The notes beneath the pieces were generated by a model. The model was not told the origin of the DNA. It worked only from the letters and a program-made list of their open reading frames with translations, and searched no databases. Source: Cryomorphaceae bacterium (GTDB taxonomy: Bacteria > Bacteroidota > Bacteroidia > Flavobacteriales > Schleiferiaceae). From it: 38,556 nt of DNA. Position 1 is the stretch's first letter; each line of letters opens with the position of its first letter. This document shows positions 1 to 811 of the stretch, one piece after another. The stretch is taken from positions 1 through 38,556 of the forward strand of contig PXCF01000056.1 in NCBI GenBank assembly GCA_003566715.1, read 5' to 3'. The position numbers were made by a program, and so were the translations under genes.

Positions 1-61
1 GGGTATAGCCAGTGTAAAACCGATTCAGTTTCTCAGAGTAAAGAATATATACAGTGTGCAT
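1..61 (-). CDS. GIY-YIG endonuclease, 5' part only (cut by window start)
   Basis: The minus strand from 61 encodes the first 20 residues of a GIY-YIG protein (begins MHTVYILYSEK, then FYTGYT). It is base-for-base identical to the start of the complete copy at 196-480, and the identity continues upstream through the leader as far as about position 113. The rest lies beyond the window, so it is unknown whether this copy is intact. It is the next unit of the tandem tRNA-Asn/GIY-YIG array. Perfect identity over 113 bases suggests a recent duplication or gene conversion. Confidence 0.75.
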   Translation of the reverse strand, partial: MHTVYILYSEKLNRFYTGYT

Positions 62-98
62 ATTATTTTTTGTAGAAAAAAACCAAAGTGTTTTCAAC

Positions 99-129
99 AA
101 AAAAAGCCGAAGATCTCTCTCCGGCTTTT
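99..129 (-). terminator. Hairpin terminator after tRNA remnant A
   Basis: On the minus strand a GC-centred hairpin (arms around AAAGCCG and CGGCTTT, GAGA-type loop) is followed by a run of seven T. It is the same terminator that follows the intact tRNA-Asn at 652-681, with a changed loop and a one-base length difference. It also sits in the leader of the GIY-YIG copy that starts at 61. Confidence 0.7.
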
Positions 130-131
130 CG

Positions 132-200
132 CTCCTCCTCTTGGGCTCGAACCAACCCCGATAGCTATCGGGGCTCTGATTAACAGTCAGATGCTCTAAC
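132..200 (-). pseudogene. tRNA-Asn 3' fragment A (remnant with palindrome insertion)
   Basis: Read on the minus strand, the sequence from GTTAGAGCATCTGACTG onward matches the intact tRNA-Asn at 683-756: D-loop end, anticodon arm with GTT, T-arm and 3' acceptor strand. The 5' acceptor strand and most of the D-arm are missing, so it cannot fold as a tRNA. In the variable region, five bases (GGTCC) of the intact gene are replaced by an 18-base perfect palindrome at 156-173. The stop codon of the GIY-YIG gene (196-198) falls inside the D-loop part of this remnant. Confidence 0.85.
156..173. repeat. 18-base palindrome in tRNA remnant A
   Basis: CCCCGATAGCTATCGGGG is a perfect inverted repeat. It occurs here and at 574-591, at the same place in both tRNA-Asn remnants, and is absent from the intact tRNA-Asn. 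I did not see it elsewhere in the window. It could be a small palindromic insertion, a folding stem or a recognition site. Confidence 0.9.
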
Positions 201-480
201 GATATTTTTCAAGAAGTTTTTCAGATATTTCAGGATAATTCTTGAGATTTCGTACGTATTTACTGCTTTTCATAGACTTTATGTGTTTTTCAATACTTTC
301 TGCTTGGTTCTTTGTTTCACATGCAATCTTATAAAAAACTACCCAGTCTTTTGCCTTTGAAGTAAATTTTCTAGACTCGTTTTTTTCAATGTGGAAATCT
401 AATCTCTCTTCAAGATTTTGGGTATAGCCAGTGTAAAACCGATTCAGTTTCTCAGAGTAAAGAATATATACAGTGTGCAT
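196..480 (-). CDS. Small GIY-YIG endonuclease inside a tRNA-Asn remnant array
   Basis: A 94-residue single-domain GIY-YIG nuclease of the UPF0213/YhbQ-like type. Visible motifs are VYIL (Tyr5) near the N-terminus, YTGYT at 17-20 in place of YIG, Arg26 (expected catalytic), His30, Trp46, and Glu64 before HIK (expected metal ligand). The family cuts DNA with one metal ion; its cellular role is poorly known. The start is taken at ATG 480. An upstream in-frame start at 573 would translate the tRNA remnant and terminator as MVRAQEEEQK and so on, which is artefactual. The stop codon TAG lies within tRNA-Asn remnant A. Upstream is a terminator hairpin (518-548) and tRNA remnant B. Inference: it is the nuclease gene of a small tRNA-targeting element. 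Family confidence is high; mobility is inferred from the layout only. Confidence 0.85.
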   Translation of the reverse strand: MHTVYILYSEKLNRFYTGYTQNLEERLDFHIEKNESRKFTSKAKDWVVFYKIACETKNQAESIEKHIKSMKSSKYVRNLKNYPEISEKLLEKYR

Positions 481-517
481 ATTATTTTTTGTAGAAAAAA
501 ACCAAAGTGTTTTCAAC

Positions 518-548
518 AAAAAAAGCCGAAGACTGCTCTTCGGCTTTT
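518..548 (-). terminator. Hairpin terminator after tRNA remnant B
   Basis: On the minus strand AAAGCCGAAGA, a GCAG loop and TCTTCGGCTTT form a strong stem followed by a T run. The stem and loop match the terminator of the intact tRNA-Asn (652-681). It lies between tRNA remnant B and the GIY-YIG start at 480, so the nuclease gene would need read-through or a promoter inside its roughly 35-base leader. Confidence 0.8.
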
Positions 549-549
549 G

Positions 550-622
550 CTCCTCCTCTTGGGCTCGAACCAACCCCGATAGCTATCGGGGCTCTGATTA
601 ACAGTCGTGTGCTCAAACCAAC
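550..622 (-). pseudogene. tRNA-Asn 3' fragment B (remnant with palindrome insertion)
   Basis: The minus strand carries TTGGTTTGAGCACACGACTG and then the anticodon arm, palindrome (574-591), T-arm and 3' acceptor strand of tRNA-Asn. Compared with the intact gene it lacks the 5' acceptor strand and D-stem and has several substitutions in the D-loop/anticodon 5' arm, so the anticodon stem no longer pairs well. It is more diverged than remnant A in its 5' part. The first T-stem base also differs (G in place of C), which breaks one pair. Confidence 0.85.
574..591. repeat. 18-base palindrome in tRNA remnant B
   Basis: It is identical to the palindrome at 156-173 and sits at the same point of the tRNA variable region. 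Confidence 0.9.
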
Positions 623-651
623 AAAATTAAAAAAACCGAAGTGTCATCAAT

Positions 652-681
652 AAAAAAGCCGAAGACTGCTCTTCGGCTTTT
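652..681 (-). terminator. Rho-independent terminator of tRNA-Asn
   Basis: Directly after the tRNA 3' end, the minus strand has an 11-base stem (AAAGCCGAAGA / TCTTCGGCTTT) with a GCAG loop and a T run. It is the founder of the copies at 518-548 and 99-129. Confidence 0.85.
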
Positions 682-682
682 G

Positions 683-756
683 CTCCTCCTCTTGGGCTCG
701 AACCAAGGACCCTCTGATTAACAGTCAGATGCTCTAACCAACTGAGCTAAGGAGGA
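683..756 (-). tRNA. tRNA-Asn(GTT)
   Basis: The minus strand folds as a complete 74-base tRNA. The acceptor stem TCCTCCT pairs with AGGAGGA and the discriminator is G. The D-arm is AGCTC/GAGC with a TTGGTTA-type loop. The anticodon stem TCTGA/TCAGA holds the loop CTGTTAA, giving anticodon GTT (Asn). The T-arm CTTGG/CCAAG has the loop TTCGAGC. The 3' CCA is not encoded. A TTG-N20-TACTTTTG promoter lies about 25 bases upstream and a strong terminator follows. Its 3' half is repeated downstream at least twice as remnants. Confidence 0.97.
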
Positions 757-780: not shown

Positions 781-811
781 CAAAAGTAATTTGAATTTTT
801 TTACTGAACAA
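781..811 (-). promoter_or_regulatory. Promoter of tRNA-Asn (Bacteroidota type)
   Basis: On the minus strand TTG (809-811), 20 bases, then TACTTTTG (781-788) matches the Bacteroidota consensus TTG / TAnnTTTG exactly. The predicted transcription start is about 20 bases before the tRNA 5' end at 756. Confidence 0.7.

Follow-up and report, generated by a model that had tools for sequence, protein, structure and literature searches.

What kind of locus places a small nuclease gene so that it ends inside a piece of a tRNA gene, and does so repeatedly? The question is raised by one end of the stretch of DNA analysed here (38,556 nt, hereafter the window), where an intact tRNA-Asn gene is followed by tandem copies of its own 3′ end and by genes encoding a GIY-YIG nuclease. 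We compared this locus with related loci across the Bacteroidota. The arrangement is probably a minimal mobile element of tRNA genes, of the free-standing GIY-YIG homing type, that replaces the 3′ end of the tRNA.

Organisation of the tRNA-Asn locus

Read on the minus strand from position 756 downwards, the locus consists of the tRNA, a terminator, a leader, remnant 1, a terminator, a leader, the GIY-YIG gene, remnant 2, a variant terminator, a leader and a second GIY-YIG gene (Table 1). The first-pass annotation, made from the sequence alone, had described an intact tRNA-Asn followed by two 3′ remnants, with a complete GIY-YIG gene between them and the start of another at the edge; ARAGORN, repeat analysis and Pfam confirmed all of this. 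The stop codon of the nuclease gene does lie in the D-loop of a tRNA remnant, as it had stated: the D-loop sequence GGTTAGAGC of remnant 2 supplies the TAG. Each remnant had been credited with a copy of the tRNA terminator, which is correct for the identical copy after remnant 1, but the copy after remnant 2 is a variant. The proposed tandem units were recovered as a direct repeat of 129 nt (97% identity, spacing 419 nt, far above chance), but the tRNA-proximal unit keeps its leader and remnant without a nuclease gene, and the palindromes in the variable loops had been overlooked. The expected count of this 18-nt palindrome in the window is 0.00.

Table 1. Features of the tRNA-Asn locus in the window, in minus-strand order.
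Feature	Position	Strand	Basis and remarks
TACTTTTG, −7 box-like, upstream of the tRNA	781..788	-	Read from the sequence
Intact tRNA-Asn(GTT)	682..756	-	ARAGORN; presumed target gene, which the element's own 3′ half would restore
Terminator hairpin directly 3′ of the intact tRNA	654..681	-	Repeat D2, 100% identical to 521-548
Residual leader of the first unit (nuclease gene lost)	623..653	-	Repeat D4, 86% to the leader preceding the GIY-YIG gene
tRNA-Asn 3′ remnant 1, D-loop to discriminator	549..622	-	Repeats D2, D3, D5
18-nt palindrome CCCCGATAGCTATCGGGG in place of variable loop GGTCC, remnant 1	574..591	.	Repeat analysis and chance count
Terminator copy, identical to 654-681	521..548	-	Repeat analysis
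Leader, terminator to GIY-YIG start	481..520	-	Sequence; repeat D4
GIY-YIG nuclease gene, 94 aa; ATG 480-478, TAG 198-196 within the tRNA D-loop	196..480	-	Pfam GIY-YIG (PF01541), E=2.3e-14; AlphaFold2 pLDDT 91.5
tRNA-Asn 3′ remnant 2, begins in the D-loop	131..200	-	Alignment to tRNA positions 19-75
Palindrome CCCCGATAGCTATCGGGG in place of variable loop GGTCC, remnant 2	156..173	.	Repeat analysis and chance count
Variant terminator after remnant 2	102..129	-	Repeat analysis
Second GIY-YIG copy, truncated at the contig edge after the ATG and first 20 codons	1..61	-	129-nt repeat, 97%; contig edge

The motif upstream of the tRNA resembles TAnnTTTG, which we take to be the consensus of the Bacteroidota promoter −7 box. 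The terminator next to the intact tRNA is presumed to be element-borne, by its likeness to the Flavobacterium loci described below. Contig C19 of a 153-contig assembly ends at position 1, and the number of copies at this locus is therefore not countable. The GIY-YIG gene was the only ORF found in the unit of the window, which has no Y1 transposase gene.

The nuclease

The GIY-YIG fold and catalytic-type residues are present in the nuclease, as judged by the Pfam match, the alignment and the AlphaFold2 model (Table 1). Residues Y5, Y16, G18, R26 and E64, which correspond to the usual GIY-YIG active site residues, were invariant or nearly so in an alignment of 20 relatives, and the family motif EKHIKSMKS was also conserved across them. 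The closest solved structures (UPF0213, SLX1 and I-TevI) were all weak matches; UPF0213/SLX1-type proteins (PDB 1zg2, 7cq2) were closest by both sequence and fold.

Distribution and tRNA linkage

An initial set of 38 named genome loci was found by protein alone, using peptide words such as EKHIKSMK, and most had a tRNA directly upstream; this set is biased to close relatives. Wider sets came from a profile search (E ≤ 1e-10), which detected the family in 59/296 genomes of the order and in 109/296 phylum-wide genomes (67/140 genera), approximately a third of the sampled Bacteroidota. The order- and phylum-wide samples together gave 100 distinct arrays, the phylum share being 20 loci chosen as best matches.

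A same-strand tRNA adjoined 77 of the 100 arrays: 69 were located at most 300 nt downstream of it, with a median gap of 53 nt and 58 of them no further than 100 nt away, and 8 abutted an intact tRNA on the 3′ side. From tRNA density, a random gene is expected beside a tRNA in well under 1% of cases. Five arrays were cut by a contig edge and 18 had no tRNA, several of these still holding tRNA remnants (e.g. L094, L105; L259, L265). Alternative RNA targets for the seemingly unlinked arrays were discarded, as Rfam gave tRNAs only and exposed the mirror-image type described below. Two arrays at distant sites of genome G163 (L094, L095) have a common upstream IS-like sequence that cuts off the tRNA-proximal end.

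The tRNA link is not universal, because a minority, well-supported nuclease clade (L168, L188, L194, L196-L199) has none; the flanks of most of its members bear the palindromic repeat CTTCGACAAGCTCAG / CTGAGCTTGTCGAAG. Elsewhere the target tRNAs were those for Asn, Arg, Met, Ala, Val, Phe, Leu, Asp, Pro, His, Thr and Lys (about 12 amino-acid families). For tRNA-Ser neighbours, which were single cases, a convincing remnant was not found. Along the tree of the nuclease there are 18 changes of tRNA label; 300 shuffles gave 45.9 on average and never fewer than 40. Different host families share the labels Met, Ala, Asp and Phe, and genome G124 by itself carries units at Met, Phe and Ala tRNAs; the label therefore tracks the nuclease and not simply the host.

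Occupied and empty loci

In Flavobacterium there is a conserved tRNA-Asn pair. Loci without the element (L150, L159) have a native terminator immediately after the second tRNA. The occupied loci (L144, L148) have the intact tRNA, a foreign terminator (TTATTAAATACCACTTAC...), the GIY-YIG gene, a 3′ remnant with a palindrome and then the native terminator. Upstream of and up to the tRNA pair, occupied L148 (genome G411) and empty L159 (G393) match at 85.5% over 2611 nt; the native terminator is at +1..41 in L159 and at +400..441 in L148 (97.6%), and the match continues beyond it (84.8% over 1386 nt). Occupied L144 and empty L150 match at 95% over 1542 nt upstream, and the native terminator is displaced from +1 to +395. 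At tRNA-Ala(GGC), empty in G335, G002 and G345 and occupied in G124 and G365, the insert has approximately 350 nt and is flanked by two copies of the tRNA 3′ end.

The element is thus optional, orthologous loci being empty or occupied at both tRNA-Asn and tRNA-Ala, although some empty loci could be losses. The inserts (about 350-402 nt) are clean and have the nuclease as their sole ORF; no site-specific integrase was found in them. In occupied loci the terminator is foreign, while the inserted tRNA end is identical or near-identical to the native one. In Flavobacterium the restored end matches that of the host itself, so the tRNA sequence gives no sign of transfer from a distant host. As read from these alignments, insertion joins the 5′ part of the tRNA to the 3′ end and terminator of the element, and displaces the native 3′ end and native terminator behind the nuclease gene. 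The predicted unit is a tRNA 3′ end, a terminator and a GIY-YIG nuclease gene, about 350-420 nt in all.

Within the genus of the window, G169 is occupied (L206; array ends L023 and L026), and G486, G098 and G485 hold a remnant without nuclease. At two loci (L153, L156), tRNA-Asn and an element-type terminator are followed by a small two-gene unit with a zeta-toxin-like ATPase and no nuclease, which is possibly other cargo at the same site.

These comparisons bear on the central proposal of the first-pass annotation, a stacked element made of a nuclease, a tRNA 3′ half and a terminator and directed to tRNA-Asn. Its composition agrees with the clean insertions and its stacking with the tandem arrays, but the restriction to Asn does not hold, many tRNAs being targeted. 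It was right that there is no visible integrase, and the loci with none, one or several units that it suggested looking for were all encountered in related genomes. An association of the nuclease with tRNA genes, the subject of its other suggested search, was found in most arrays but not in the unlinked minority clade.

Remnants and hairpins

In 68 of the 83 units of tRNA-linked arrays, the stretch following the nuclease stop codon outscored every one of 100 shuffles in its match to the 3′ end of the tRNA. The tRNA sequence often supplies the stop codon (TTAGCTCAG, GGTTAGAGC or the anticodon loop GTTAATC), and the junction between element and tRNA ranges from the D-loop to the anticodon loop. 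Hairpins (at least 6 bp, loop of at most 4) were present in 86 of 96 distinct remnants, compared to 17 of the matching intact tRNAs and 8 shuffled remnants under the same criterion. Hairpin position in the remnant is clade-specific: the anticodon arm is replaced in the Ala, Arg and Val types and in some Met types, whereas the Asn types have the hairpin in the variable loop, the T-loop or the acceptor. The hairpin shortens the stretch over which remnant and tRNA match exactly, leaving a median length of 19 nt. This interruption of the match is inherited as part of the element.

Hairpins alter the remnants, but no consistent change is seen in the intact tRNA that occupied alleles carry: between occupied and empty alleles, tRNA-Asn was identical and anticodon-stem variants of tRNA-Ala occurred in both. 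A recoded, cleavage-resistant rescue copy was considered, since occupied tRNA-Ala loci (L221, L222) differ in the anticodon stem from empty ones (L225, L234, L235), and was ruled out with more genomes (stem CTACG in 6/14 empty and 5/21 occupied). Several fully compensated versions of the tRNA-Ala(GGC) anticodon stem exist in one genus regardless of the element (L221-L245, L075-L098, L192, L251).

Palindromes also occur outside the arrays. The genome of the window contains a MITE-like repeat, approximately 140-190 bp long and bounded by imperfect inverted repeats with about 42 matches (e.g. L013:1410-1600, L266-L295); a subset of copies has CCCGATAGCTATCGGG at one internal site and the other copies have no palindrome there. 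Palindrome counts per genome showed no tight link with nuclease presence, in exact searches that miss lineage variants.

Tandem arrays and mirror-image forms

Arrays of 2-8 units were common. An assembly artefact was ruled out, as arrays are present in single-contig genomes (G163, 7 copies with a spacing of approximately 381 nt; G124, 5 copies beside tRNA-Met). Tandem nuclease-less units composed of a tRNA piece, a palindrome and a terminator were found at L147, L152 and L158. These three loci include near-full-length pseudo-tRNA-Asn copies with hairpins.

A mirror-image layout was found in eight arrays (L090, L167, L174, L180, L183, L184, L186, L195), plus L034/L035. Here a tRNA 5′ part and a palindrome are upstream of the nuclease gene and the intact tRNA is downstream, and the stop codon of the nuclease usually falls within the intact tRNA. 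Replacement by the element is therefore not confined to the 3′ end of a tRNA but extends to the 5′ end.

Alternative explanations

At the level of sequence comparison, the loci establish precise insertion, a supplied tRNA end and terminator, a remnant, occupancy polymorphism, isoacceptor-linked clades and tandem arrays. Three other explanations were weighed against a tRNA-gene element. Replication slippage around a fixed neighbouring gene, duplicating tRNA 3′ ends with no mobility, could yield tandem repeats with tRNA ends. However, the unit is located at unrelated tRNA loci in many families, the same nuclease clade is found at the same tRNA across host families, and empty and occupied loci differ by exactly one foreign block including a different terminator; we consider slippage highly improbable. 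A nuclease domesticated by the host for a tRNA-related job (RNA processing, tRNA cleavage under stress or defence), with the remnants as by-products of local duplication, would agree with its wide occurrence, the correspondence between nuclease clade and isoacceptor and the lack of an integrase. Patchy presence with clean empty sites looks selfish rather than domesticated, as do the element-borne terminator, the broken and GIY-less copies, the arrays of up to 8 units and the mirror-image insertions. Domestication is therefore unlikely.

Only slightly more probable, and still doubtful, is that the GIY-YIG nuclease mobilises the palindromes, which would then be the actual (REP-like) mobile unit, with tRNA sites as one of several landing contexts. 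Clean insertion of the whole unit counts against mobility of the palindrome only, and many palindrome-bearing genomes have no nuclease (e.g. G186, 21 copies), while some element-bearing genomes confine the palindrome to the array (G064). Nearly all nuclease genes do have palindromes alongside, including the tRNA-unlinked clade with its CTTCGACAAGCTCAG-type flanking repeats, and the CCCGATAGCTATCGGG palindrome is dispersed in the genome of the window, also within a MITE. However, the variation of the palindrome sequence by lineage and its clade-specific position in the remnant fit vertical descent with the element.

Proposed mechanism

In the tRNA-gene element that we favour, the nuclease would act in homing, as an endonuclease whose cutting target is an empty tRNA gene of its own isoacceptor. 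The break would be repaired from the occupied donor allele, the intact tRNA and the remnant serving as two homology arms, so that donor and recipient would need to share the tRNA only. The hairpin probably blocks re-cutting of the remnant, or lowers the rate of deletion by recombination with the intact tRNA. Units may be stacked in tandem by repeated cutting or by unequal exchange at the tRNA ends, which are present in several copies; for phage T6, such stacking has been reported with SegB.

Comparison with known systems

We know of no association of UPF0213/SLX1-type proteins with tRNA genes. SegB of phages T4/T6 is a free-standing GIY-YIG homing endonuclease encoded in a tRNA cluster (PMC2988022, PMC13096335); it cleaves inside tRNA genes and, in T6, is the driver of tandem tRNA/segB repeats (PMC13096335). 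Both systems have a GIY-YIG nuclease beside tRNA genes and tandem repeats of tRNA and nuclease, and the SegB motif RAWTSGAAC resembles the T-loop. However, SegB is located between phage tRNA genes without a replacement tRNA end, while the element occupies bacterial chromosomes, supplies a tRNA 3′ end and terminator and has a hairpin-marked remnant. A phage vector was sought and discarded, with no tblastn match in 50,697 phage records, none in viral contigs and one weak plasmid hit (Legionella); in the same phage records and viral contigs, no sequence relationship of the nuclease to SegB-type phage homologues was detected.

The architecture of the element is that of the fungal mitochondrial mORFs, endonuclease ORFs which bring a replacement 3′ end of a gene and displace the native one downstream; examples are Allomyces atp6 and Glomus atp6/atp9/cox2/nad3, with a GIY-YIG in Glomus atp9 (PMC3630166). 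The mORFs differ in affecting mitochondrial protein genes, and neither a hairpin-marked remnant nor a wide isoacceptor-specific family is described there. Islands and satellites that integrate into tRNA genes also restore the tRNA 3′ end and leave a 3′ fragment at their far end; unlike them, the element has no integrase or att-site recombinase, measures approximately 400 nt, exchanges the terminator too and has a variable junction. REP sequences with Y1 transposases (RAYT) likewise combine short palindromes with a single-domain nuclease, but the element has no Y1 transposase and its palindrome is embedded in tRNA remnants.

Searches of an open-access library turned up nothing relevant, either on the palindrome or on GIY-YIG proteins and tRNAs in Bacteroidota. 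To that extent, the suggestion of the first-pass annotation that the element is perhaps undescribed stands. The strategy has a precedent in fungal mitochondria and the enzyme class has one in phages; the bacterial, tRNA-directed, hairpin-marked and two-sided form appears to be new.

Significance

We see even chances of a broader generalisation: a single small GIY-YIG nuclease, whose clades are each specialised for a tRNA isoacceptor, would define a phylum-wide class of minimal elements that parasitise essential tRNA genes by replacing either end (the 3′ end or, in mirror image, the 5′ end), with the hairpin making the discarded end immune to the nuclease or to recombination. If true, these would rank with the smallest known autonomous mobile elements, inserted in essential genes and yet restoring them. 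Bacterial chromosomes would then harbour a cut-and-restore strategy, with cutting as its presumed step, previously known from fungal mitochondria. Such elements would account for many tRNA pseudogenes and for many small 'GIY-YIG nuclease' annotations near tRNAs. They also provide a set of nucleases whose specificity has apparently switched among tRNA genes, which makes target recognition by GIY-YIG enzymes testable. In its presumed cutting of an essential gene for which it carries a rescue copy, the element resembles engineered drives.
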